From positions 1-64,000 of the forward strand of contig NZ_FNAR01000005.1 in NCBI RefSeq assembly GCF_900101985.1: a stretch of 64,000 nt of DNA, given 5' to 3'. The stretch comes from Bhargavaea beijingensis. GTDB taxonomy: Bacteria; Bacillota; Bacilli; Bacillales_A; Planococcaceae. A program made the position numbers and the translations under genes. Below, piece after piece: positions 13,501 through 45,240 of the stretch (the first letter of the stretch is position 1; every line of letters begins with the position of its first letter). The notes below the pieces were generated by a model. It made no database searches and was not told the origin of the DNA. It was given only the letters and a program-made list of their open reading frames with translations.

Positions 13501-13653
13501 GGAAAAGCCCTGCCTGGAGCAGGGCTTCGGTTCCCTTCGCTCTCATGTTCAGGCGGGTGTCCGCCTCCGGAATTGGCACCTTGCCCGGAGTGGTTTTCCG
13601 GGCGGTTGCCGGGCTTCATCGGGCCGGTCCCTCAGCCGCTCTTCATAAGAGAG
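13501..13653 (-). promoter_or_regulatory. SAM-I (S-box) riboswitch upstream of MFS transporter
   Basis: The minus strand shows the S-box order: P1 CTCTTATG...CATGAGAG, the conserved core GAGGGACCGGCCC, GATGAAGCCCGGCAACC, and GGTGCCAATTCC. A terminator stem AAGCCCTGC/GCAGGGCTT with trailing TTCC follows at 13501-13529. High SAM should form P1 and allow the terminator, switching the transporter off. Confidence 0.93.
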
Positions 13654-16035: not shown

Positions 16036-16196
16036 ATAAAAAGAGCCCTCCGAATAAGAAGAGGGCCCTGCGGATTCACAGATGGTCTTCTTATCTTCCG
16101 GAACCTTGCGGGATCCGCTGGAAGTAGCACCTTTGCCTTCCGGCTGGTTGCTGAGACATCATAGGGCCAGTCCCTCCGTCTCTCTGGATAAGAATT
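16036..16196 (-). promoter_or_regulatory. SAM-I (S-box) riboswitch upstream of metI
   Basis: The minus strand carries P1 TTCTTATC...GATAAGAA, GAGGGACTGGCCC, GATGTCTCAGCAACC and GGTGCTACTTCC in S-box order. A terminator stem GGGCCCTC/GAGGGCTC followed by TTTTT lies at 16038-16067. It should turn off metI and the next gene when SAM is plentiful. Confidence 0.96.
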
Positions 16197-25615: not shown

Positions 25616-25640
25616 GACTAAAAATCGGATAGACCGGGTC

Positions 25641-25750
25641 GCCCTCATATAAGTCCGGAAATATGGTCCGGATGTCTCTACCAGGCCGCCGTAAATGGCC
25701 TGTCTATGAAGGCGGATGCCATACGTGCGTGCACGGGGCATCCGCTTTTT
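25641..25750 (+). promoter_or_regulatory. Guanine riboswitch upstream of guaA
   Basis: A purine riboswitch aptamer at 25641-25713 has P1 GCCCTCATA/TATGAAGGC, P2 loop AAATATGG, the junction TCTCTACC, P3 CAGGCC/GGCCTG and J3/1 TCTAT. The specificity base in J3/1 is C, which indicates guanine. A terminator GCGGATGCC/GGGCATCCGC with TTTTT follows at 25712-25750. Guanine should stop guaA transcription. Confidence 0.93.
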
Positions 25751-27623: not shown

Positions 27624-27648
27624 CTCTTTATCATCAAACATAATTTTA

Positions 27649-27801
27649 CCCGTCGTATAATACCGGAGATAGGGTCCGGAAGTTTCTACCGAGCCGCCGT
27701 AAATGGCTCGACTACGATCGGGGGCGTGCTTATTTGCATTTTCTGCATTTGGCGCGCCTCCTTTCCGGTAGGGCATGCGACAGATTGTTGCATGCCCTTT
27801 T
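27649..27801 (+). promoter_or_regulatory. Guanine riboswitch upstream of pbuG
   Basis: Aptamer at 27649-27723: P1 CCCGTCGTA/TACGATCGGG, P2 TCCGGA-type stem, junction GTTTCTACC, P3 CGAGCC/GGCTCG and J3/1 ACTAC with the guanine-specific C. A terminator GGGCATGC/GCATGCCC plus TTTT lies at 27771-27801. Confidence 0.95.
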
Positions 27802-30196: not shown

Positions 30197-30213
30197 AAAA
30201 CACGTTAAGAACA

Positions 30214-30424
30214 TTCCCCATATATCCCGAGGAATCGGCCTCGGAGTCTCTACCCCGGCACCGGAATGCCGGGACTATGCGGGAAAGCGGATTTCAGGAC
30301 TCGGAATGGAAGGTGTGCGACGCATGGAAATGATCATGACGCTACCGACTTATCTGAACATGTTCAGGTCCCGGATCGACTGCTTTCCTCCTATTGAATA
30401 GGAAGCAGTCTATTCGGGGCTTTT
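30214..30424 (+). promoter_or_regulatory. Guanine riboswitch and leader of the pur operon
   Basis: Aptamer at 30214-30285: P1 TTCCCCATA/TATGCGGGAA, P2 CCGAGG/CCTCGG, junction GTCTCTACC, P3 CCCGGCA/TGCCGGG and J3/1 ACTAT with the guanine-specific C. Downstream lie a perfect palindrome CTGAACATGTTCAG (30354-30367) and a hairpin GACTGCTT/AAGCAGTC (30378-30410), then GGGGCTTTTATTTAT. The last hairpin is the probable terminator, although its U-tract is offset. Confidence 0.9.
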
Positions 30425-30461: not shown

Positions 30462-30950
30462 ATGGACGTGAAAGTGGGCGTCATCATGGGAAGCAAAAGC
30501 GACTGGGAAACGATGAAGAAAGCATGCGATATCCTGGACGAACTGGGAGTCGGATACGAGAAGAAGGTCGTCTCCGCGCACCGAACGCCGGATGAAATGT
30601 TCACCTATGCGGAACGGGCACATGAGCGGGGAATCGAAGTAATCATCGCGGGGGCGGGGGGCGCAGCCCACCTGCCGGGAATGGTCGCCGCAAAAACGCT
30701 CGTGCCGGTCATCGGCGTTCCGGTCAAGTCGCGCGCGCTGAGCGGCATGGACTCGCTCCTGTCCATTGTCCAGATGCCGGGCGGCGTCCCGGTCGCGACA
30801 ATGGCGATCGGCGACTCCGGCGCTACAAACGCCGGCCTATTTGCGGCTCAGATGCTCGCAGTGCATGACGAAGCGCTCTTGGGACGCATCCAAGAGCGGC
30901 GCAGCCGGCTGGCGCACCAATCCATTGAAAGCACAGGTGATCTTGTATGA
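30462..30950 (+). CDS. purE: N5-carboxyaminoimidazole ribonucleotide mutase
   Basis: A 162-residue class I PurE, which converts N5-CAIR to CAIR in de novo IMP synthesis. GSKSDWE (10-16) and SAHRTP with the catalytic His40 are intact, as is the [11 protein letters not shown] loop. GGAAGGAG precedes the ATG. It is the first gene of the pur operon and overlaps purK by four bases. With PurK it forms the bacterial two-step route. Confidence 0.96.
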
Positions 30951-32065
30951 CGACCATTCTTCCGGGACAGACAATCGGCATCATCGGCGGGGGACAACTG
31001 GGCCGGATGATGGCCCTTTCCGCCAAGGAAGCCGGCTTCCGCATCGCAGTGCTTGACCCGGCGGAAGACTCTCCGACAGGCCAGGTGGCCGATGTGAAAA
31101 TCGTCGCCCCATACGACGACGAAGAAGCGCTCGACCGCCTGGCGGAAGTGAGCGACGTCATCACCTTTGAATTTGAGAATATCGACTACGAAGGCCTAAA
31201 GCGGCTCACCGGGAAAGCATACGTCCCGCAGGGCGCGGAAATCATCCGCATCACCCAGGACCGGATCGCGGAAAAAGCGGCGATCCACGATGCGGGCGCA
31301 CCGGTCGCGCCCTATGTGGAAGCCCGGACATTTGAAGAGCTGAAGGAACGCATCGGAGAGATCGGCTTCCCGTGCGTCGTAAAGACCGCACGTGGCGGTT
31401 ACGACGGCAAGGGGCAGGTCATCCTGAAAGAGGAATCCGAACTTGCCGGAGCGGAAGAACTGTTCACCCATTCAGCATGTGTGGCTGAGAAGTTCATCCC
31501 ATTCAAGATGGAAATCTCGGTCATCATCCAGCGCGGCACGAACGGCGAATCCCGCTGCCTGCCGGTTCAGGAGAACATCCACAAAAACCATATCCTGCAC
31601 GAGACGATCGTCCCGGCACGGATCGCGGATGCTACGGCTGAGGCCGCCATCACAGCGGCCGGGCAGATCGCCGACCACCTGGATCTGATCGGGACGCTGG
31701 CAGTCGAGATGTTCGTCCTCGAAGACGGCAGCATCCTCATCAATGAGCTTGCGCCGCGCCCGCACAACTCGGGCCACTATTCGATCGAGGCATGCACGAT
31801 TTCCCAGTTTGGCCAGCACATCCGCGCCATCTGCGGATGGCCGCTCCGCACGCCGGAGCTCCACCGCCCGGCAGTCATGGTGAACCTGCTCGGCCAGCAC
31901 GTCGCGCCTGTCCTCGATGCCATCCCGGACCAGCCGGACTGGTCGGTTCACCTGTACGGCAAGGCCGGGGCCAAGCACAACCGCAAGATGGGCCATGTGA
32001 CCATCCTTGCAGATGATAATGAAGAAACGCTTCGCCGGATCGACGAAAGCGGAATCTGGCGCTAA
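30947..32065 (+). CDS. purK: N5-carboxyaminoimidazole ribonucleotide synthase
   Basis: A 372-residue ATP-grasp enzyme that carboxylates AIR with bicarbonate and ATP. The N-terminal [11 protein letters not shown] (11-21), the ATP-lid RGGYDGKGQ and the C-terminal [14 protein letters not shown] motif are present. It overlaps purE by four bases, and purB follows after 16 bases. Confidence 0.95.
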
Positions 32066-32081: not shown

Positions 32082-33380
32082 ATGATTGAACGCTATACAC
32101 GCCCCGAAATGGGCAATGTCTGGACAGAACAAAACAAATACAATGCGTGGCTGGAAGTCGAAATCCTCGCATGCGAAGCATGGGCGGAGCTTGGCGATAT
32201 CCCGAAGGAAGACGTGAAAAAACTCCGGGAAAACGCCTCGTTCGACGTAGCGCGAATCGAAGAAATCGAGAATGAAACCCGCCACGATGTCGTCGCCTTT
32301 ACACGCGCGGTATCCGAAACGCTTGGGGAAGAGCGCAAATGGGTCCATTACGGCCTCACGTCAACGGACGTCGTCGACACGGCGCTCTCGTATCTCATCA
32401 AGCAGGCAAACGAAATCATCCGGAAAGACCTGCACAACTTCAACGACATCCTCGCTGCGAAGGCGAAAGAGCATAAGTACACCGTCATGATGGGCCGCAC
32501 GCACGGCGTGCACGCGGAGCCGACGACGTTCGGACTGAAGATGGCCCTCTGGTACGAAGAAATGAAGCGGAACCTTGAGCGGTTCGAAGCGGCGGCTGCC
32601 GTGATTGAAACGGGCAAGATGTCCGGCGCGGTCGGCACATTCGCCAACATTCCGCCGTTCGTCGAAGAGTATGTGTGCGAGCGGCTCGGCCTCGCGCCGG
32701 CGCCAGTGTCCACACAGACCCTCCAGCGTGACCGCCACGCCCAGTACATCTCGACACTTGCACTGATCGCGACATCGATCGAGAAGTTCGCAGTTGAGAT
32801 CCGCGGACTTCAGAAATCGGAGACGCGCGAAGTCGAGGAATTCTTCGCGAAGGGCCAGAAAGGCTCGTCCGCAATGCCGCACAAGCGCAACCCGATCGGC
32901 TCCGAGAACATGACCGGCCTGTCCCGCCTGATGCGCGGCTACATGGTCACCGCCTTCGAAAACGTCGCCCTCTGGCATGAACGCGACATTTCGCACTCGA
33001 GCGCGGAGCGTGTCATCATCCCGGACGCCACGATCACGCTGAACTACATGCTGAACCGCTTCGGCACCATCGTGAAGAACCTCACCGTCTTCCCGGAAAA
33101 CATGAAGCGCAACATGGACCGCACGCTCGGGCTCATCTACTCCCAGCGCGTCCTTCTGTCGCTCATCGACAAAGGCATGGCACGAGAAGCAGCCTACGAC
33201 ACCGTCCAGCCGCTCGCGATGCAAGCCTGGGAAGAACAGGTTCCATTCCGGGACCTCGTCGAATCCGACCCGGTCATCTCCGAAAAACTGACCAAAGAAG
33301 AACTCGACGACGCCTTCGACTACAACCACCACCTCCAGCGCATCGACGACATCTTCGAACGCTGCGGGCTGAATGACTGA
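32082..33380 (+). CDS. purB: Adenylosuccinate lyase
   Basis: A 432-residue fumarase-superfamily enzyme that cleaves SAICAR to AICAR and adenylosuccinate to AMP. The signature [11 protein letters not shown] (261-271), [14 protein letters not shown] (138-151) and [15 protein letters not shown] are intact. The ATG at 32082 follows GGAGG, and the longer upstream frame is ignored. In B. subtilis purC, which makes SAICAR, comes next; here a non-coding element follows instead. Confidence 0.96.
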
Positions 33381-33430
33381 CAGAGAGTAACCCGATGGAC
33401 GGCAATACATTTTCTTGAAATTGATTAAAC

Positions 33431-33545
33431 GCAGCGCAGGGCTCGAAGACTCCTGCGGGAAAAGCGGGACAGCCGAGACCCCGCGGGCGGGACGCCGAGG
33501 AGGCTTGGCGCCCGCCCGCGGAAAGCGAAGAGCCCGGAGCGGAGT
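33431..33545. repeat. GC-rich dispersed hairpin element at the purC position
   Basis: Fills most of the 220-base purB-purS gap. The outer stem GGGCTC/GAGCCC (33439/33530) encloses a perfect 11-pair stem CCGCGGGCGGG/CCCGCCCGCGG (33481/33511) and an inner CGCC/GGCG hairpin. The text CTCCTGCGGGAAAAGCGGGA resembles, from memory, an intergenic element scattered in many Bacillales genomes. No purC coding sequence or fragment is recognisable here. Confidence 0.6.
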
Positions 33546-33600
33546 ATCTCCGCACTTCATCTAAACCACCACACACTCACCAATTGGGAGGCCAACCAAA

Positions 33601-33855
33601 ATGAAAAAAGCAAATGTGTACGTGACGCTCCGTGAAAGTGTAATCGATCCTCAGGGGACAGCAGCCATCAACGTCCTCCACGCCAAAGGCCATGACAACG
33701 TAAAAGACGTCCGCATCGGCAAATACATCGAACTGACCATCGAAGACACGGGGCAAGATCTCGACACGGCCGTCAGGGAAATGTGTGAAAAGCTCTTCGT
33801 GAACACCAACGTCGAAGACTACCGGTACGAAGTGCTGGAGGTTGAAGAGGCATGA
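33601..33855 (+). CDS. purS: FGAM synthase subunit PurS
   Basis: An 84-residue small subunit that bridges PurQ and PurL in the PurSQL formylglycinamidine ribonucleotide synthase. [17 protein letters not shown] and [11 protein letters not shown] are typical. AATTGGGAGG precedes the ATG. It overlaps purQ by four bases. Confidence 0.95.
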
Positions 33856-34538
33856 AATTCGCCGTCATTCAATTTCCCGGATCCAGCTGCGACCTCGACC
33901 TCTACCATGCCGTAACCGACGTTCTTGGAGAAAAGGCGGAATACGTCCCTCACCATGAAACGGACCTGTCCGCGTACGACGCCATCCTCCTGCCGGGCGG
34001 CGCTTCCTACGGCGACGCCGTGCGTGCGGGAGCCCTCGCGCGCACAGCGAGCATCATGGATGCCGTCATCGCTGCAGTGAAAGAAGGCAAGCCTGTCCTC
34101 GGGGTGGGCAACGGCTTCCAGATCCTGACGGAAGCGGGCCTGCTGCCGGGCGCATTCCTCAAGAACCGTGACCAGAAATTCATCTGCCGCAACGTCAAAG
34201 TCCAGGTCGTGAACAACCGCACCCTGTTCACAAGCGAGTACACCGAGGGCGAGGAGCTCAACATCCCGATCGCCCACGGCGAAGGCAATTTCTACTGCGA
34301 TGAAGAGACCTACGGCCGACTCAAAGAAAACAACCAGATTGTCTTTGTTTACTCGGACGGCAATCCGAACGGATCCGTCGGTGACATAGCGGGCCTCGTG
34401 AACGAAAAGGGTAATGTCCTCGGCATGATGCCCCACCCTGAGCGGGCTGCCGAGTCCATCCTGGGCTCCGAAGACGGACTGAACGTATTCAAATCGATTG
34501 TGAATGAGTGGAGGGAATCCCATGCCAACCAAGCTTGA
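33852..34538 (+). CDS. purQ: FGAM synthase glutaminase subunit PurQ, catalytic Cys replaced by Gly
   Basis: A 228-residue class I glutaminase that should supply ammonia to PurL. His and Glu of the triad are in MMPHPERA, but the nucleophile motif, normally GVCNGFQ, reads GVGNGFQ: codon 86 is GGC (34107-34109). The neighbouring PGGFSYGDYLRCGA motif of B. subtilis PurQ also differs, reading [14 protein letters not shown]. The rest aligns well and the frame is open and coupled to purS and purL. Glutaminase activity is therefore probably lost; ammonia-dependent FGAM synthesis by PurL could remain. The family assignment is certain, the activity is not. Confidence 0.93.
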
Positions 34539-36753
34539 GCCGACGGCGGAACAAATCCGCGATGAACAGATCTACGCACAGATGGGCATGACCACGGAAG
34601 AATTCGAAATGGCGGTCAAGCTTCTCGGACGCCTGCCGAACTATACGGAAACCGGCCTGTTCTCCAGCATGTGGTCGGAGCACTGCTCGTATAAGAGCTC
34701 CAAGCCCGTTCTCCGCAAGTTCCCGACCGAAGGCCCACAGGTTCTCATGGGACCCGGCGAAGGCGCGGGCATCGTCGACATCGGCGATAACCAGGCAGTC
34801 GTCTTCAAGATGGAGTCGCACAACAGCCCATCGGCGATCGAGCCGTACGAAGGGGCAGCAACCGGCGTGGGCGGGGTTCTCCGTGACGTCTTCTCGATGG
34901 GCGCCCAGCCGATTGCGGCAGTGAACTCGCTCCGGTTTGGTGAACTCGACAACGACCGTGACCGCTGGCTGTTCGAGGAAGCCGTCGCGGGAATCGCCGG
35001 CTACGGCAACCGTATCGGCATTCCGACAGTCGCCGGTGAAATCCAGTTCGACCCTTCCTATGCAGGAAAGCCGCTCGTCAACGCGATGGCAATCGGCCTT
35101 CTTAACCACGAAGACATCCAGCGCGGCTTGGCTGCCGGCGTCGGCAACACCGTCATGTATGTCGGCGCGAAAACTGGCCGCGACGGAATCCACGGCGCAA
35201 CTTCCTCGTCGGAAGAAATTTCGGATGACCCGGGCAAGGAACGCGCGCCGGTCCAGGCGGGCGATCCGTTTACTGAAAAACTCCTCATGGATGCATGCCT
35301 TGAACTCGTCAAATCCGACGCGCTCATCGGCATCCAGGACATGGGTGCGGCCGGCCTGACCTCTTCCTCCGCGGAAATGGCGTCAAAGGCAGGCTTCGGC
35401 ATCGAGATGAACCTTGACCTCGTTCCTCAGCGCGAGGAAGGCATGACTGCCTATGAAATGATGCTGTCCGAATCCCAGGAGCGGATGCTGATCGTCGTTC
35501 AGAAAGGCCGTGAGCAGGAAATCATCGACCTGTTCGCCAAGTACGATCTTGAAGCGGTATCGATCGGCCAAGTCACGGAAGACAAGATGCTCCGCCTTCT
35601 CCACCAAGGCGAAGTCGTCGCGGAAGTCCCGGCCGATGCGCTTGCAGAGGATGCACCGGTCTACCACAAGCCGTCCCGCGAGCCGGAATACTTCCGCGAG
35701 TTCCAAGGGATGGAGCAGCAGGAGCCGGAAGTGGCCGACTACACGCAAACGCTGGTCTCCCTCCTGAAACAGCCGACCATTGCATCGAAGGAATGGGTGT
35801 ACAGCCAGTTTGACCACCAGGCGCGCACCAACACGGTCGTAGCCCCCGGTTCGGATGCAGCGGTCGTGCGTGTCCGGGGCACGGAAAAGGGTCTGGCGAT
35901 CACCGCCGACTGCAACTCGCGCTATATTTATCTCGATCCTGAAACAGGCGGGAAAATCGCGGTCGCGGAAGCGGCCCGCAACATCATTTGCTCGGGCGGC
36001 AAACCGCTCGCCATCACCGACTGCCTGAACTACGGCAGCCCGGACAACCCGGAAATCTTCTGGCAGCTTGAAAAGTCGGCCGAGGGCATCAGTGCGGCCT
36101 GCCTGGCGCTCGACGCGCCTGTGATCAGCGGGAACGTCTCCCTTTACAACGAACGCGGCGGCAAGCCGGTCTACCCGACACCGACGATCGGCATGGTCGG
36201 CCTTGTCGAGAACCTGGAACATGCGACCACTCAAACTGCGAAAGCGGCAGGGGACTTCGTATACCTGATCGGCGAGACAAAAACCGAATTCGGCGGTTCG
36301 GAACTGCAGAAAATGCTGAACGGCGGCAGCATCTCGGGCAAGGCGCCGGCGATCGACCTCGATGTGGAAGCGGCCCGCCAGGAAGCCCTCCTCGCGGCAA
36401 TCCGTGAAGGCATCGTCCGCTCCGCGCATGATGTCGCGGAAGGCGGCGTCGCGGTTGCGCTTGCGGAAAAGGTGTTCGGCACCGGTCTCGGCGCAGAAGT
36501 GAAGCTCGACGGCCCCGCAGTCAGTGCGCTCTTCAGTGAAACGCAGTCCCGCTTTATCGTGACCGTCAAGCCGGAGCACGCGGCCCGCTTCGAAGAACTG
36601 GCTGCAGATGCACGGAAAATCGGTGAAATCACACAAGCGGATCGCCTGGCCATCCGCGACGCAGACGGCAATCTTCTGGTCGACCAGGACGTCACCCTGC
36701 TCGAATCCGCCTGGAAAGGGGCGATCCCGTGCTTAGTGAACTCAGAGGGCTAA
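34522..36753 (+). CDS. purL: FGAM synthase large subunit PurL
   Basis: The 743-residue ATP-dependent synthetase converts FGAR to [15 protein letters not shown] near residue 50, [22 protein letters not shown] and GRDGIHGAT are visible. GTGGAGGGAATCCC precedes the ATG at 34522, so the start lies within the last codons of purQ. It overlaps purF by 25 bases. It normally receives ammonia from PurQ through PurS. Confidence 0.96.
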
Positions 36754-38150
36754 ATGAAGAATGCGGCGTGTTCGGCATCTGGGGCCATGACAATGCGGCC
36801 CAGATGGCGTACTACGGTCTCCATGCCCTCCAGCACAGGGGGCAGGAAGCGGCCGGGATCTGCACGGTGCATGACGGCCATCTGCTCGTCGAAAAAGGGG
36901 AAGGTCTCGTCAACGACGTGTTCCATGGCGACCGGCTCGACAAGCTGCCGGGCCATGCGGCGATCGGTCATGTCCGCTACACGACGGATGGCGGGCGCGG
37001 CATCGAGAACGTCCAACCTCTCGTGTTCCGCTCGACAACAGGAAGCCTGGCGATCGCGCACAACGGCAACGTCACGAATGCGGGGGAGCTTAAACGCCAT
37101 CTTGAACGCCAGGGCAGCATCTTCCAGTCGACTTCCGACACGGAAGTCCTTGCCCATCTGATCAAGAAAAACATCAGCTATCCGCAAAATGAACGGTTTA
37201 AAAAGGCGCTTGCCCAACTGCAGGGCGCTTTCGCCTTCGTCCTCCTGACCGAGGATGCCCTTTATGTCGCCCAAGACCCGAACGGCATGCGCCCGCTGTC
37301 TCTCGGCTGCATCGGCGGGGAAACGTGGGTGGTCGCATCCGAGACGTCTGCATTCGACCTGATCGGCGCGGAGACCGTGCGCTCGGTCGAGCCGGGTGAA
37401 CTCGTCATCATCGACGATGACGGCATCCGGAGCGACCGGTTCGCCCCTAAGACGAGCCGTGCGATCTGCTCGATGGAATACATTTACTTTTCCCGTCCCG
37501 ACTCAGACATCGACGGCATCAACATCCACATGGCCAGGAAGCGCCTCGGCAAGCGGCTGGCCCAGGAAGTCACCATTGACGCGGATGTCGTCACGGGCGT
37601 GCCGGATTCCAGCATTTCCGCGGCCATCGGGTTTGCGGAGGAAAGCGGCATCCCGTACGAGATGGGACTGATCAAGAACCGGTATGTCGGCCGGACCTTC
37701 ATCCAGCCGTCCCAGGAACTGCGGGAGCGCGGCGTCAAGATGAAACTGTCGCCGGTCCGCCAGGTGGTCGAGGGCAAGCGGGTCGTCATGGTCGACGACT
37801 CGATCGTCCGGGGCACCACGTCGAAGCGGATCGTCAAAATGCTGCGCGATGCGGGGGCGAAGGAAGTCCACGTCGCCATCAGCGCACCGCCGCTGATCGC
37901 ACCGTGCTTCTACGGCGTCGACATCAGCACCGACTCCGAACTGATCGCGACAGGCCGCACGCCTGAGGAAATCTGTGAACTGATTGGGGCGGACTCGCTC
38001 CAGTTCCTGTCGGCGGAAGGGCTGATCGAAGCGGTCGGACGGAACGATGGCGATCCGAACCGGGGCCACTGCCTCGGATGTTTCACAGGCAACTACCCGA
38101 CGGACATTTTCGCGGACACGAAACTGCCGCATGAAAAGGAACGCGTTTAA
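36729..38150 (+). CDS. purF: Amidophosphoribosyltransferase
   Basis: A 473-residue enzyme catalysing the first committed purine step, PRPP plus glutamine to phosphoribosylamine. The Ntn nucleophile is Cys12 (NEECGVFG) after a short propeptide. The PRPP loop is [16 protein letters not shown]. Cysteines in AICSMEY and near the C-terminus ([11 protein letters not shown]) suit the 4Fe-4S cluster of the Bacillus-type enzyme. Unlike PurQ, its glutaminase site is intact. The GTG start at 36729 lies inside purL. Confidence 0.96.
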
Positions 38151-38165
38151 GAGGAGGCCACTGGC

Positions 38166-39236
38166 ATGTCAAAAGCATATGAACAGGCCGGCGTAAACAT
38201 CGAAGCCGGATATGAGTCGGTCGAGCGGATGAAATCCCACGTCGCCCGCACGGAGCGGAAGGGTGTCATGGGTGCGTTCGGCGGATTCGGCGGGATGTTC
38301 GACCTGTCCGGGCTCGGTTACAGCCAGCCGGTCCTCGTTTCGGGGACAGACGGCGTCGGCACGAAGCTGAAAGTCGCCTTTATGGCGGACAAGCACGACA
38401 CAATCGGCGTCGACTGCGTCGCGATGTGCGTGAACGATATCGTCGCACAGGGCGCTGAGCCGCTTTATTTCCTCGACTATGTCGCCCTCGGCAAGGCCGT
38501 CCCGGCACGGGTCGAAGCGATCGTCAAAGGCGTCGCGGACGGCTGCGTCCAGGCCGGAGCGGCGCTGATCGGCGGCGAGACCGCGGAGATGCCCGGACTG
38601 TATGACGAGGACGAATACGACCTCGCCGGATTCGCGGTGGGCGCTGTCGAGAAAAAGGACATCATCACCGGCAAAAAAGTCGCGGAAGGCGATGTTCTCG
38701 TCGGAATCGCGTCCAGCGGCATCCATTCGAATGGCTACTCGCTTGTCCGGAAAATCGTCTTTGAGCAGTTGGGTGTCAAGGCGGACGAGCCGGTTCCGGG
38801 ATACGGGGAGCTGGGGAATTCGGCGGAAGCGCTGCTGACGCCGACGAAAATCTATGCGAAGCCGGTTCTGGAGATGGCCCGGAGCCTGGACGTCCACGGC
38901 ATGGCGCACGTGACGGGCGGCGGTTTCTATGAAAACGTCCCGCGCATGCTGCCGGAAGGCCTGGCCGCCGAGATCGACCTCGGCTCGTGGGACGTGCTCC
39001 CGGTGTTCCGCATGCTGAAGGAAAAAGGCGGTCTTGCCGACCGCGATCTGTACTCCGTCTTCAACATGGGTATCGGATTCATCGTCGCCCTCCCGGAATC
39101 GGAAGCGGCGGAAGCGATCCGCATCGCGGAAGCCCATGGCGAGAAGGCATCGGTCATCGGCCGCGTCGTCGCGGGCGAAGGCGTCCGGTTCAACGGGGAA
39201 CATGACGGTACGCTTACCGGAGGTCCGGAAGCATGA
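38166..39236 (+). CDS. purM: Phosphoribosylformylglycinamidine cyclo-ligase (AIR synthetase)
   Basis: A 356-residue PurM/SelD-superfamily enzyme closing the imidazole ring of FGAM to give [26 protein letters not shown] and [11 protein letters not shown] are intact. AAGAGGAGG precedes the ATG. It overlaps purN by four bases. Confidence 0.96.
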
Positions 39237-39820
39237 GCCGGAAACCCCGCATCGCCGTTTTCGCATCGGGAAGCGGCTCGAACTTCGAAGCCATCGCCCG
39301 GGCGGCGGCAGACGGCGAACTGGAAGCGGAAGTCGTGCTTCTCGTCACCGACAAGCCGCTCGCGAAAGTGATGGAGCGGGCGGAGCGGTTCCGCATCCCG
39401 TCCGTCGCCTTTAATCCGAAAGCCTACCCGGACAAGGCCGCCTATGAGCAAACCGTCCTCGGGCGGCTCCGGGAAGAGGAAGTGGACTGGATCGCCCTGG
39501 CCGGCTACATGCGTCTCGTCGGCCCGACATTGCTCGAAGCCTATCCGAACCGCATCATCAACATCCACCCGTCGCTCCTCCCGGCGTTCCCGGGAAAGGA
39601 CGCGATCGGCCAGGCGATGGACGCCGGAGTGGATGTGACCGGTGTCACCGTCCATTATGTCGATGAAGGCATGGACACCGGCCCGGCGATTCTCCAGCGC
39701 GAAGTCCCCGTTGTGGCGGGTGACCGCGAAAAGACCGAAGCCGCCATCCACGCGGTCGAGCACGGTCTTTATAAGGAAGCTTTGCGGAAAGTGCTGGCAG
39801 AGAGTGCGGTAACGGAGTAG
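39233..39820 (+). CDS. purN: Glycinamide ribonucleotide transformylase
   Basis: A 195-residue folate-dependent enzyme formylating GAR. Asn110, His112 ([13 protein letters not shown]) and Asp148 (DEGMDTGP) form the catalytic set. It overlaps purM by four bases. A 135-base gap with a hairpin separates it from purH. Confidence 0.95.
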
Positions 39821-39955: not shown

Positions 39956-41491
39956 GTGAAAAAACGAGCATTGCTCAGCGTATCGGATAAATCCGGCGTC
40001 CTCGAGTTCGCGAAAGAACTTGAAGGACTCGGCTATGAGATCCTGTCGACCGGCGGGACGATGAACCATCTGAAGGAAAACGGCGTCGCCGTCACCGCAG
40101 TCGGGGATGTGACCGGCTTCCCGGAAATCCTCGGGGGACGCGTCAAGACGCTCCATCCATATATCCATGGCGGCCTGCTCGCCAAGCATGACGACCCGGA
40201 ACACCAGGCCGAACTGGAGGAGCACGGCATCCTTCCGATTGACATCGTCTGTGTGAACCTGTATCCGTTCAAGTCGACGATTTCAAAGCCGGACGTGACG
40301 GTCGAAGATGCCATCGAGAACATCGACATCGGCGGCCCGACGATGTTGCGCGCATCCGCGAAAAACCATGCCTATCTGACGGTTCTCGTCGACTCCGCAG
40401 ATTACCCGGCGGTTCTGGAAGAGCTGAAGAAAGACGGGGCGACCGCGCTTGAAACCCGCCGTCGCCTTGCGGCAAAAGTGTTCCGCCACACAGCGGCATA
40501 CGACGCGCTCATCTCCGGCTACCTGACTGATCTGGTCGGCGAAGAATTCCCGGAAAGCGTCACGATGACCTACGAACTCACGCAGCCGCTCCGCTACGGT
40601 GAGAACCCGCACCAGAAAGCGGCCTTCTACAGCCGCCCGCTCGGCGGGAAGTTCTCGATCGCCCGTGCGGAACAGCTTCACGGGAAGGAGCTCTCCTACA
40701 ACAACATCCAGGACGCCAATGCCGCGATCGGCATCGTCCGCGAATTCAGCGAGCCTGCTGCTGTCGCGGTCAAGCACATGAACCCTTGCGGCGTGGGAAC
40801 GGCCTCCACCCTTTCCGATGCGTTCAAGGCAGCCTACGAAGCGGATCCTGTCTCGATTTTCGGCGGAATCATCGCGCTGAACCGTGAAGTCGATGCGGCG
40901 ACGGCCGAGCAACTGGCGGGCATCTTCCTCGAGATCATCATCGCGCCGGGCTACACCGACGAAGCGTTTGAGATTCTGACACAAAAGAAAAACATCCGCC
41001 TCCTGAAGCTGGACGGGGCGGAAGGCGAGCGCGACGAGTGGACGACCGTCTCCGTCGAGGGCGGCCTCCTCATGCAGAATCCGGACATCGCCTCTCTTGA
41101 TGATGCAGACATCAAAGTCGCCACGAAGCGTGAGCCGACCGAAGAAGAATGGGAAGCGCTGAAGCTTGGCTGGAAAGTCGTCAAACATGTGAAGTCGAAC
41201 GCCATTGTCGTCTCCGACGCCAACCGCACGCTCGGCGTCGGTGCCGGACAGATGAACCGTGTCGGCGCGGCCAAGATCGCACTCGAGCAGGCCGGCGACC
41301 GGGCGAAAGGCGCAGGCCTCGCGTCCGACGCCTTCTTCCCGATGGACGACACCGTCGAAGCGGCTGCCAAAGCCGGCATCACGGCGATCATCCAGCCGGG
41401 CGGCTCGAAAAAAGACGAAGACTCCATCAGGAAAGCCGACGAATACGGCATCGCGATGGTGTTCACCGGCATCCGCCATTTCAAGCACTGA
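39956..41491 (+). CDS. purH: Bifunctional AICAR transformylase / IMP cyclohydrolase
   Basis: A 511-residue fusion catalysing the last two steps to IMP. The N-terminal MGS-like cyclohydrolase domain has GGRVKTLHP (Lys64). The C-terminal transformylase has the catalytic Lys273-His274 pair ([10 protein letters not shown]). Here the start codon is GTG, preceded by AAGGAGG. Length matches the family. Confidence 0.96.
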
Positions 41492-41573: not shown

Positions 41574-42833
41574 ATGGATGTACTGGTCATCGGAAGCGGC
41601 GGCCGCGAGCACGCGCTCGTCCGCCAGTTCAAGAAATCCCCATCGGTCGGCAAGGTCTACGTCGCACCGGGCAATGATGGCATGCGTGAAGACGCCCAAA
41701 TGGTCCCGATCGGCGTCATGGAGTTCGGCAAGCTCGCCGATTTCGCGAAAGAAAACAACATCGGCCTGACATTTGTCGGTCCGGAGCAGCCGCTTGCCGG
41801 CGGCATCGTCGATCATTTCCGTGAGGCGGGCCTCCGCATCTTCGGACCCGACAAAGCAGCCGCCCGGCTGGAAGGCTCCAAGGCATTTGCTAAAGAGCTC
41901 ATGAAGACATACAACATCCCGACGGCGAAGTACGAGACGTTCACCGATGAGGAGCAGGCAAAAGAATACATCCGCGAACAGGGCGCGCCGATCGTCATCA
42001 AGGCGGACGGGCTTGCGGCAGGAAAGGGCGTCGTCGTCGCGATGACACCGGATGAAGCGCTGGAGGCAGTCGACGACATGATCGGCGGCCGCAAGTTCGG
42101 CGACTCCTCCTCCCGTGTGGTCATCGAGGAATTCCTTGAAGGGGAAGAGTTCAGCTACATGTCTTTCGTCCACGGCGGCAAGATTTTCCCGATGCCGATG
42201 TCACAGGACCATAAACGTGCGTTCGATCATGACGAAGGCCCGAACACGGGCGGCATGGGCGCCTATTCCCCGGTGCCTCATTTGCCGGAAGACGCCGTCC
42301 GCACGGCTCACGAACAGATTGTCGAAGCGACCGTCCGTGCGATGGATGCGGAAGGCACGCCGTTCACCGGCATCCTGTATGCCGGCCTGATCTTAACCGA
42401 AGACGGCCCGAAAACGATCGAATTCAACGCACGCTTCGGGGATCCGGAAACCCAGGTCGTCCTGCCGCAGCTAAAATCCGACCTTGCGGCATTCCTGGTG
42501 GCCCTCCTGGACGGCAAACCGATTGAACCCGAATGGGAAGAAGGCGCCCGCCTCGGCGTGGTCATCGCCGCGGACGGCTATCCGGGCGATGTTCAGAAAG
42601 GAGCACTGCTTCCAGACCTGAAACCTTTGGAAAAAGCCGGGCTCGATGTGTTCCATGCCGGAACAAAAGCGGATGGTGAACGCTATGCCGGAAACGGCGG
42701 CCGCGTCATCCTCGTCTCCGCGGAAGGCGAGAGCCTCGGGGAAGCAAGCAAAAAAGCATACGCCGCACTTGACTCGATGGAATGGAACGGATTCTTCTAC
42801 CGCTCCGACATCGGGAAACGCGCGATGAAATAA
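41574..42833 (+). CDS. purD: Phosphoribosylamine-glycine ligase (GAR synthetase)
   Basis: A 419-residue ATP-grasp enzyme making GAR from phosphoribosylamine, glycine and ATP. The start VIGSGGREHAL, GPEQPLAGGIVD, KADGLAAGKGVVVA and HDEGPNTGGMGAYSP motifs are intact. ATAAGGAG precedes the ATG. Last gene of the operon, with a strong terminator after it. Confidence 0.96.
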   Translation: MDVLVIGSGGREHALVRQFKKSPSVGKVYVAPGNDGMREDAQMVPIGVMEFGKLADFAKENNIGLTFVGPEQPLAGGIVDHFREAGLRIFGPDKAAARLEGSKAFAKELMKTYNIPTAKYETFTDEEQAKEYIREQGAPIVIKADGLAAGKGVVVAMTPDEALEAVDDMIGGRKFGDSSSRVVIEEFLEGEEFSYMSFVHGGKIFPMPMSQDHKRAFDHDEGPNTGGMGAYSPVPHLPEDAVRTAHEQIVEATVRAMDAEGTPFTGILYAGLILTEDGPKTIEFNARFGDPETQVVLPQLKSDLAAFLVALLDGKPIEPEWEEGARLGVVIAADGYPGDVQKGALLPDLKPLEKAGLDVFHAGTKADGERYAGNGGRVILVSAEGESLGEASKKAYAALDSMEWNGFFYRSDIGKRAMK

Positions 42834-43509: not shown

Positions 43510-45240
43510 ATGGCTCAAGCACCATGGAAAATCAGGGAGCTCCGTAACCACACTGCGATCATCGACGGCAGGCGGGCGCCGGATCTCCTGATTACAAATG
43601 CTACATACCTGCACGGAATCCTGAAGAAATGGATTTCCGGAAACATCTGGATCTCGGGCGACCGGATCGTTTACGCAGGCGCAGATATGCCGAAAAAAAC
43701 GGATGGCACGGAAGTGGTCGATGCTTCCGGCAAGATGATCGTGCCGGGTTATATCGAGCCGCATGTGCATCCATACCAATTATATAATCCCCTATCTTTT
43801 GCGGAATATGCATCCCGACGGGGAACAACGACCTTTATCTCGGACAATAGCGTTCTTTTTTTGACGATGGAGAATTGGAAAGCGTTTGCAATCCTTGACC
43901 AGCTCAAGGAATTGCCGTTTTCCTTCTACTGGTGGTCCCGGTTTGATTCGCAGACTGAGATGGATAAAGAAGAGGAACTGTACACGACGCAGTCGGTCGG
44001 CGAATGGATGGCGCGCCCAGACGTCCTCATGGGAGGGGAACTCACCGCCTGGCCGCGGCTTCTCGCGGGCGATGACCAGATGCTGTACTGGATGCAGAAC
44101 GCCAAGCAGGCCGGCATGAAAATGGAAGCCCATCTTCCGGGCGCTTCCGAGCGGACGCTCGCCCGGCTCCGCCTTCTGGGGGCGGACGGCGATCACGAGG
44201 CGATGACGGCGGAAGAAGTGGAACGGCGCATCCTGCAGGGCTACGCCGTGACACTCCGCTATTCATCCATCCGGCCGGATCTTCCGGAGATGCTGAAAGG
44301 CATCTTGGAAAAGGATCTCAACATCCTCGACCACCTCATGATGACAACCGATGGCTCGACGCCTTCGTTCCATGAAGATGGCGTCATGGACAAGTGCATC
44401 CAGGCCGCGCTGGACGTCGGCGTCAAGCCGGAAGATGCGTATGCGATGGCGACCTACAATATTGCGCGCTATTACGATATGGAAAACCTGCACGGCCTGA
44501 TCGCGACCGGGCGGTATGCGGACCTGAACTTCCTGGAGAATGCGGAAAATCCGGTGCCGACAGATGTCTTGTCCAAAGGTGTCTGGATGAAGCGGGACGG
44601 AGAAGATGCCTATGAATTCCCGGAAATCGACTGGTCGTGGCTGGAGCCTTATCATCCGCCGTACGAGCTGGATGAAAACGACTTCCAGTTCTCGTTCCCG
44701 TTCGGAATCGAGATGCTGAACGACGTCATCACGAAACCGTATAGCGTCAATGTCGACCCTTCCGATCAGAAGTTGCCGTCCGGCCAGGACCAGAGTTTCC
44801 TTCTCCTGATCGACCGTGAGGGCAATTGGCGGGTGAACACACTCATCAAGGGATTCGCGGACGATGTTCTCGGCTTTGCGACGTCCTACTCCAACACGGG
44901 GGACATCATCATGATCGGCAAGAACATGGCCGACATGAAGCTCGCATTCGACCGCCTGAAAGAAATCGGCGGAGGAATGGCGCTTGCCGGGAACGGTAAA
45001 ATCATTGCGGAGCTTCCGCTTAAGCTCGGCGGCCTGATGTCAGATCTTCCGATGGAGCAACTGATCACCCAGGAAAAGAAGCTGAAAGACGAACTGAAGG
45101 AGCGCGGATACAAGCACGGGGATGCGGTCTACACGCTCCTGTTCCTTCAGGCGACCCATCTGCCGTATGTCCGCATCACGCAAAAAGGCATTTATGATGT
45201 CATGAACGGCAAAGTGATGTTTCCCGCACTCATGCGGTAG
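43510..45240 (+). CDS. yerA: Adenine deaminase-like amidohydrolase (YerA)
   Basis: A 576-residue amidohydrolase of the adenine deaminase/YerA type. The metal-binding start of the barrel is VPGYIEPHVHPYQLY, with further family blocks MEAHLPGAS (metal His) and DLNFL near the end of the barrel. The C-terminal adenine deaminase domain follows from about residue 400. It probably deaminates adenine or a related base to feed salvage, in keeping with the pur neighbourhood; B. subtilis YerA activity is not firmly assigned. Order yerA-yerB-yerC is as in B. subtilis. Confidence 0.85.
   Translation: MAQAPWKIRELRNHTAIIDGRRAPDLLITNATYLHGILKKWISGNIWISGDRIVYAGADMPKKTDGTEVVDASGKMIVPGYIEPHVHPYQLYNPLSFAEYASRRGTTTFISDNSVLFLTMENWKAFAILDQLKELPFSFYWWSRFDSQTEMDKEEELYTTQSVGEWMARPDVLMGGELTAWPRLLAGDDQMLYWMQNAKQAGMKMEAHLPGASERTLARLRLLGADGDHEAMTAEEVERRILQGYAVTLRYSSIRPDLPEMLKGILEKDLNILDHLMMTTDGSTPSFHEDGVMDKCIQAALDVGVKPEDAYAMATYNIARYYDMENLHGLIATGRYADLNFLENAENPVPTDVLSKGVWMKRDGEDAYEFPEIDWSWLEPYHPPYELDENDFQFSFPFGIEMLNDVITKPYSVNVDPSDQKLPSGQDQSFLLLIDREGNWRVNTLIKGFADDVLGFATSYSNTGDIIMIGKNMADMKLAFDRLKEIGGGMALAGNGKIIAELPLKLGGLMSDLPMEQLITQEKKLKDELKERGYKHGDAVYTLLFLQATHLPYVRITQKGIYDVMNGKVMFPALMR

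Follow-up and report, generated by a model that had tools for sequence, protein, structure and literature searches.

The canonical purC gene for SAICAR synthetase is missing from the purine operon of Bhargavaea beijingensis, and it is close to certain that its product (PurC1) has been replaced in Bhargavaea by a divergent, unlinked PurC protein, here named PurC2. The textbook route of de novo purine synthesis is constant: two of its steps consume aspartate, with fumarate released by PurB, and FGAM takes its nitrogen from glutamine. Taken as a whole, the explanation that PurC1 was lost, that PurC2 took over, and that AICAR is made from CAIR with ammonia appears fairly likely.

The purine operon and the vacated purC site

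The window is a 64-kb stretch of contig C38 of genome G000, and its genes were named using NCBIfam profiles. The plus-strand purine operon has the order purE-K-B-[220 bp]-S-Q-L-F-M-N-H-D, and purC is absent; the named genes bear out the order read in a first-pass annotation of the sequence. The B. subtilis pur operon has the same gene order apart from purC. Compared with it, the window lacks purC and has lost the PurQ Cys, and the remaining order is alike. A purine riboswitch (30198-30297; Rfam RF00167, 65.4 bits) lies ahead of purE (30462-30950; TIGR01162, 220.9 bits), which is followed by purK (30947-32065; NF004675, 559.8 bits) and a retained purB (32085-33380; TIGR00928, 588.8 bits). The purB-purS junction (33381-33600) is the canonical purC site in relatives, as located by genome comparison. 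Downstream are purS (33601-33855; NF004630, 92.3 bits), purQ for the glutaminase subunit of FGAM synthetase (33852-34538; NF002957, 321.9 bits), purL for the synthetase subunit (34504-36753; NF002290, 1008.6 bits), purF (36729-38150; TIGR01134, 537 bits), the translation of which retains the glutaminase Cys (NEECGVFG), purM (38166-39236; TIGR00878, 448.1 bits), purN (39233-39820; TIGR00639, 218.4 bits), purH for the AICAR-using enzyme (39956-41491; NF002049, 765.3 bits), and purD (41574-42833; TIGR00877, 533.5 bits). All of these features are on the plus strand.

The window contains three purine riboswitches on the plus strand (25625-25726, 27633-27734, and 30198-30297) and two SAM riboswitches on the minus strand (13540-13651 and 16088-16194). 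One of the purine riboswitches is directly 5' of a permease-like 446-aa ORF, for which no NCBIfam family was found at 1e-30. An adenine-deaminase-like ORF lies 3' of purD (43510-45240, plus strand; TIGR01178, 209.7 bits against a cut-off of 472.5).

Thirty PurC1 protein queries gave no match in the window at E ≤ 0.01. Within the 220-bp gap only fragments 5-32 residues long aligned (E of 0.11 or worse), in agreement with the earlier statement that no purC remnant is present. An assembly gap as the cause of the missing gene was ruled out: the independent genome G007 has the same 220 bp with one letter different, and in 8/8 genomes of the genus purB and purS are separated by 220-413 bp without purC. 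In the 30 best-scoring canonical family loci out of 121, the purB-purS interval holds purC without exception, and the spacing between the purC and purS matches is 5-27 bases. The order is purK-purC-purS in a further canonical genome (G115). Since canonical purC occupies the purB-purS interval in relatives and is absent here, the gene was lost in this lineage.

PurC2, a divergent PurC encoded elsewhere

A single PF01259 protein, PurC2, was found in the same genome outside the window (G000:C33:324605-325240, 133.6 bits). Each of the eight genomes of the genus encodes one PF01259 protein, of the divergent form. The first-pass annotation had suggested that purine synthesis is broken, rerouted, or completed by genes elsewhere; completion from elsewhere and rerouting held up, and breakage did not. 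The pathway loss it had raised, for which purC was sought genome-wide, was ruled out by the unlinked PurC2 and by the presence of a PurC in all 151 family genomes. By hand count, canonical PurC alone is present in 54 of these genomes (E of about 1e-85 or lower), two matches in 67, and divergent PurC alone in 30 (about 1e-36 to 1e-45). The second match was of the divergent kind in at least 12 of the 67, among the matches listed. A class sample of 398 genomes contains five further PurC2-only genomes from outside the family (G182, G161, G486, G396, and G454). The PurC2-only class was assigned by E-value for most genomes, among them g6, G068, G075, G161, G182, G454, and G486; PurC2 was read or located in the genus, in eight g3 and g8 genomes, and in G396 (the only one of the five read as sequence).

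PurC2 of B. beijingensis is 79-95% identical to Bhargavaea proteins, 69-75% identical to PurC2 of the eight g3 and g8 genomes, and 58% identical to that of G396. Best-segment identities of 62-95% were obtained with proteins from Paenibacillus, Enterococcus, Lysinibacillus, Chitinophagaceae, and other taxa. Against 30 family PurC1 proteins the identity is 31-36%, and the TIGR00081 score (117.1 bits) is below the cut-off of 189.9. PurC2 is a separate PurC subfamily.

Functional residues were compared between 26 PurC2 (24 named loci, that of B. beijingensis, and G396) and 30 PurC1, using E. coli PurC numbering. All 13 residues of the ATP/Mg/CAIR set (Lys11, Lys13, Glu90, Arg94, Ser100, Lys123, Asp125, Asp129, Asp175, Lys177, Glu179, Asp191, and Arg199) are kept in 26/26 PurC2. 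Five other residues, kept in 30/30 PurC1, are changed. Gly takes the place of Asp196 in all 26 PurC2, Leu that of Lys211 in 24 (the other two are unaligned there), and a hydrophobic residue that of Arg215 in 23 (the other three are unaligned there); Pro195 and Ala34, the latter a neighbour of the ATP/Mg/CAIR sites, are Gly in all 26. Three of the 26 aligned stretches ended short of the stop codon. The complete tails lack K-x3-R in 24/24 named PurC2 and in G396, although in many of them a Lys or Arg is found one position away from the aligned Lys211 place. PurC2 also carries an extra FDPGxNxVG segment.

In human PAICS, Arg232, Lys228, Thr40, and Lys191 bind the aspartate carboxylates (PMC9376930). 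From the K-x3-R spacing, and not from an alignment, we infer that human Lys228 and Arg232 correspond to E. coli Lys211 and Arg215. The equivalents of Lys191 and Thr40, which are also aspartate ligands, are retained in PurC2. Arg215 has been described as contacting CAIR (PMC3261824). The residue comparison shows that PurC2 has lost aspartate-end residues and that those for ATP, Mg, and CAIR stay. An AF2 model of a Bhargavaea PurC2 that is 93% identical to the B. beijingensis protein (24 sequences, pLDDT 91.9) gave 38 PDB matches at E ≤ 0.001, all of them SAICAR synthetases or PAICS, and a PurC fold is predicted. PurC2 thus shares its predicted fold and ATP/Mg/CAIR residues with the known SAICAR synthetase PurC (PF01259, TIGR00081; E. 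coli 2GQR, S. pneumoniae 4FE2, human PAICS 6YB8), but differs from it in lacking Asp196, Lys211, and Arg215, in carrying FDPGxNxVG, and in scoring under the TIGR00081 cut-off.

No pur gene adjoins purC2 in 27 named loci or in nine stretches of 15-20 kb. Of the contexts mapped, only that of G396 has purC2 together with other pur genes: there it (L190:7501-8187) heads a purL-E-F-M-N-H-D cluster. The PurF of this cluster (L190:12387-13634) begins with MSGILGVY, a change of the catalytic Cys1 to Ser. Within 3.6 kb around purC2 of B. beijingensis no Rfam motif was found, and no convergent PurBox-like pair was found 5' of the gene. An inverted repeat, CTTTCGG-TTATAAT...CCGAAAG, with TATAAT inside, is just 5' of purC2 in 6/8 genus genomes (L001, upstream of 1483) and is a possible operator. 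In seven of the eight g3 and g8 stretches, a MoeB/ThiF-like gene and two putative thiG and thiS genes, identified by eye, are 5' of purC2 (L281:16153-17939 and like places in L282-L287); the thiG candidate gave no NCBIfam match at 1e-30. Thiamine synthesis uses AIR. The presence of these thi-like genes may be mere synteny.

Losses that accompany reliance on PurC2

PurQ codon 86 (34107-34109, plus strand) is GGC (Gly) in the window and TGY (Cys) in canonical relatives by sequence comparison. In an alignment of the eight genus genomes, the window and 6/7 others have Gly at residue 86, and G006 has Cys. The window PurQ does not match the catalytic-Cys pattern G-[VI]-C-N-G-F-Q. The His/Glu triad motif PHPE is intact in 8/8 Bhargavaea; none of the 21 dead PurQ from g3, g6, g8, and G068 gave a match to this motif. 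Among the other PurC2-only genomes of the family, PurQ has Gly in 20/20 of g3, g6, and g8 and Ser in G068; G075 keeps Cys. In total, the FGAM glutaminase is lost in 28/30 PurC2-only family genomes and in 0/111 PurC1-bearing ones, the codon having been seen in 111 of 121 genomes (G106 gave no match).

Similar losses were found outside the family. PurQ has Ser in G182, PurL is present and PurQ absent in G161 and G486, and the glutaminase part of the fused PurL of G396 reads GSGSAF, against GICNGF in G187; G454 keeps Cys. Loss was thus seen in 4/5 PurC2-only genomes versus 1/23 PurC1-bearing genomes (one-sided exact p 0.0012), the other 22 of which keep Cys (21 in PurQ, one in a fused PurL). The exception is G441, which has a PurQ Cys-to-Ser change beside a canonical purC that a contig break divides in two (L207 end, L193 start). 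This split gene led to the rejection of G441 as a PurC2-only genome; it is instead a counterexample, the single dead PurQ seen with canonical PurC. The earlier coupling of the purC gap with the PurQ change is upheld, as both co-occur across families. With Cys kept in G006, G075, and G454 and lost in G441, the link between the two losses is not strict. In a tree of PurL from 64 genomes, in which G441 was unlabelled and not counted and G396 was not included, the fewest changes were six for PurC1 and five for the glutaminase; three to four independent pairs agree and none is opposed (median p 0.125). PurC2 reliance therefore tends to be associated with glutaminase loss, with few independent losses and exceptions both ways.

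Dead glutaminase parts of amidotransferases are known from other systems. Carbamoyl phosphate synthetase I is ammonia-dependent and keeps a dead glutaminase part. PurF' of Crenarchaeota is described as lacking the N-terminal Cys (PMC3261824). Unlike in these systems, it is FGAM synthetase that is affected here, together with PurC1 replacement.

PurB was searched for in 30 genomes. It was found in 9/9 PurC1-bearing genomes and was absent from 15 of the 21 PurC2-only genomes, and all 15 carry divergent PurC alone. The PurC2-only genomes with PurB are G000, G006, G182, G396, and G161, that of G161 being of the E. coli type (NF006764, 701 bits). G068 is ambiguous: its sole candidate is a 443-aa lyase (TIGR00928, 369 against a cut-off of 326.2) that scores higher, under the cut-offs, with the NF006500 adenylosuccinate-lyase subfamily, XcbD, and PcaB-type models. 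In the PurB-less genomes the best matches are ArgH, FumC, or AspA (assigned by NCBIfam in 8/15 and from the N-terminal sequence in the remaining seven). An argG motif is beside argH in five PurB-less genomes and is absent in 5/5 loci of genus g3. The E-K-L-F-M-N-H-D genes are in place in 6/6 PurB-less genomes with the operon inspected; the order is E-K-S-Q-L-F-M-N-H-D in G014, G032, G027, G075, and G454, and E-K-L-F-M-N-H-D in G486. A pathway that makes CAIR (purE, purK) and uses AICAR (purH) in the absence of PurB needs another route from CAIR to AICAR. PurC2 is the only candidate seen for this conversion in PurB-less genomes.

purA is also missing between dnaB and walR in the PurB-less genomes G027 (L236:16148-19998) and G075 (L263-L265). 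It is present there in 4/5 PurC1-bearing genomes (G065, G117, G066, and G290) and not in G037, which has canonical PurC. No PurA match was found in the part of the G027 genome that was read, about 340 kb. purA may be elsewhere in G027 and G075, each of which was read in part.

A proposed ammonia route and the alternatives

The operon-borne PurC1 was lost in a Bhargavaea ancestor, and the unlinked PurC-fold ligase PurC2 took over its work. In the proposed mechanism, PurC2 would activate the CAIR carboxylate with ATP, and ammonia, not aspartate, would attack. PurC2 most likely turns CAIR directly into AICAR, bypassing SAICAR and PurB; this one step would replace the formation of SAICAR by PurC and then of AICAR by PurB. 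The amine donor, we infer, is probably ammonia. With enough free ammonia, the FGAM synthetase glutaminase would be dispensable (PurQ Cys86Gly in the window), and PurL would take free ammonia for FGAM. PurB would be dispensable where AMP is made without it. The common cause would be ample free ammonia, which would free the cell from PurC1, from the FGAM glutaminase, and, given another AMP source, from PurB. Bhargavaea keeps PurB, and therefore SAICAR could still be the product there; in that genus itself, an aspartate route could operate.

A broader version is an aspartate- and glutamine-sparing pathway in which PurL and PurC2 (and PurF in G396) run on ammonia, together with an ammonia-dependent enzyme from IMP to AMP in PurB-less genomes. 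No purine nitrogen would then need to pass through aspartate. We regard this version as tentative and lean against it. Genus g3 is possibly Sporosarcina, which is a guess; the reported failure of S. pasteurii to grow without urea (PMC6979283) is suggestive only.

It is unlikely, but clearly conceivable, that PurC2 is a divergent yet ordinary SAICAR synthetase that uses aspartate, that it took over by redundancy, and that the PurQ and PurB losses have separate causes, such as an ammonia-rich habitat and another, ArgH-like lyase doing the job of PurB. Two PurC occur in 67/151 family genomes, so simple redundancy could permit the loss of one. PurC2 keeps Lys177, Bhargavaea retains PurB, and the ArgH-like lyase of genus g3 has no argG motif nearby (5/5 loci). 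Short archaeal PurC-like proteins (TK0432, TGAM_1268, and Mlab_0676) are reported to end before Arg215; they are second copies in Thermococcus and the sole PurC in M. labreanum, the latter a point in favour of an ordinary enzyme (PMC3261824). The authors of that paper thought SAICAR synthesis possible, and the parts covered propose no new amine donor. Loss of the Arg215 end is alike in these proteins and PurC2, a likeness drawn from their description and not from a comparison of sequences. Against an ordinary enzyme, the Asp196, Lys211, and Arg215 shared by all 30 PurC1 have been lost from each of the 26 PurC2 that aligns at these sites. This explanation does not predict PurB loss in several lineages. 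Further points against it are that purA is missing between dnaB and walR in both PurB-less genomes inspected at that position, and that ArgH adjoins an argG motif in 5/5 other PurB-less genomes.

A salvage lifestyle, with de novo synthesis broken and PurC2 doing a different job, would fit purine uptake as suggested by the three riboswitches of the window, one of them 5' of the permease-like ORF, and the lack of PurB in many PurC2-only genomes. We consider it very improbable, as the remaining pur genes are intact here and present in far relatives, every one of the 151 family genomes has a PurC, and purC2 of G396 sits inside a pur cluster. Moreover, class genomes without any PurC lack PurL in 6/7 cases, and the seventh (84% complete) gave only a 4.8e-4 match.

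The GC-rich structured element that the first-pass annotation had placed in the gap, and had called dispersed, is real on both counts. It is a hairpin (33433-33543, plus strand) with an MFE of -67.3 kcal/mol (z -4.5; 0/200 shuffles equally good). It has 11 blastn matches in the genome including itself, four of which span only about 50 bases, and its 14-base core occurs at 16 genome sites including itself at ≤1 mismatch (reversed control, 0). The window contains a single copy of its 18-base core. No Rfam family scored above the gathering score, and no hit up to E 5 overlapped the element; a literature search with part of the core listed matches that were unrelated by title. Copies lie less than 300 bases from the start of contigs C6, C13, C20, C23, C29, C34, and C43 of G000, five of the seven scoring equally, and perhaps adjoin longer repeats that broke the assembly.

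Core motifs are at the purB-purS junction in 8/8 Bhargavaea genomes, with two copies in two of them, as would be expected if the element had caused the loss of purC by inserting into the gene or by recombining across it, with nothing else unusual. A motif search gave no copy of the element between purB and purS in any of 30 canonical operons. It is also absent from 22/22 stretches (~3.7 kb around purQ) of the other PurC2-only family genomes, so purC loss is independent of the element, and the hairpin as a general cause is ruled out. With no purC remnant flanking the element, and with PurQ, PurB, and PurC2 left unaccounted for, such an origin is scarcely credible. The element looks like a dispersed repeat occupying the vacated purC site, and the hairpin seems incidental.

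For an ammonia-fed shortcut from CAIR to AICAR, the literature search, with most subscription papers outside its scope, found no description. Several lineages of Bacilli keep the purine pathway without PurB, without a working FGAM glutaminase, or without both. If AICAR is indeed made from ammonia by PurC2, this would be an undescribed shortcut in a central pathway. The name purC may then be wrong for many of the genes that carry it, and an enzyme that forms AMP may await discovery.
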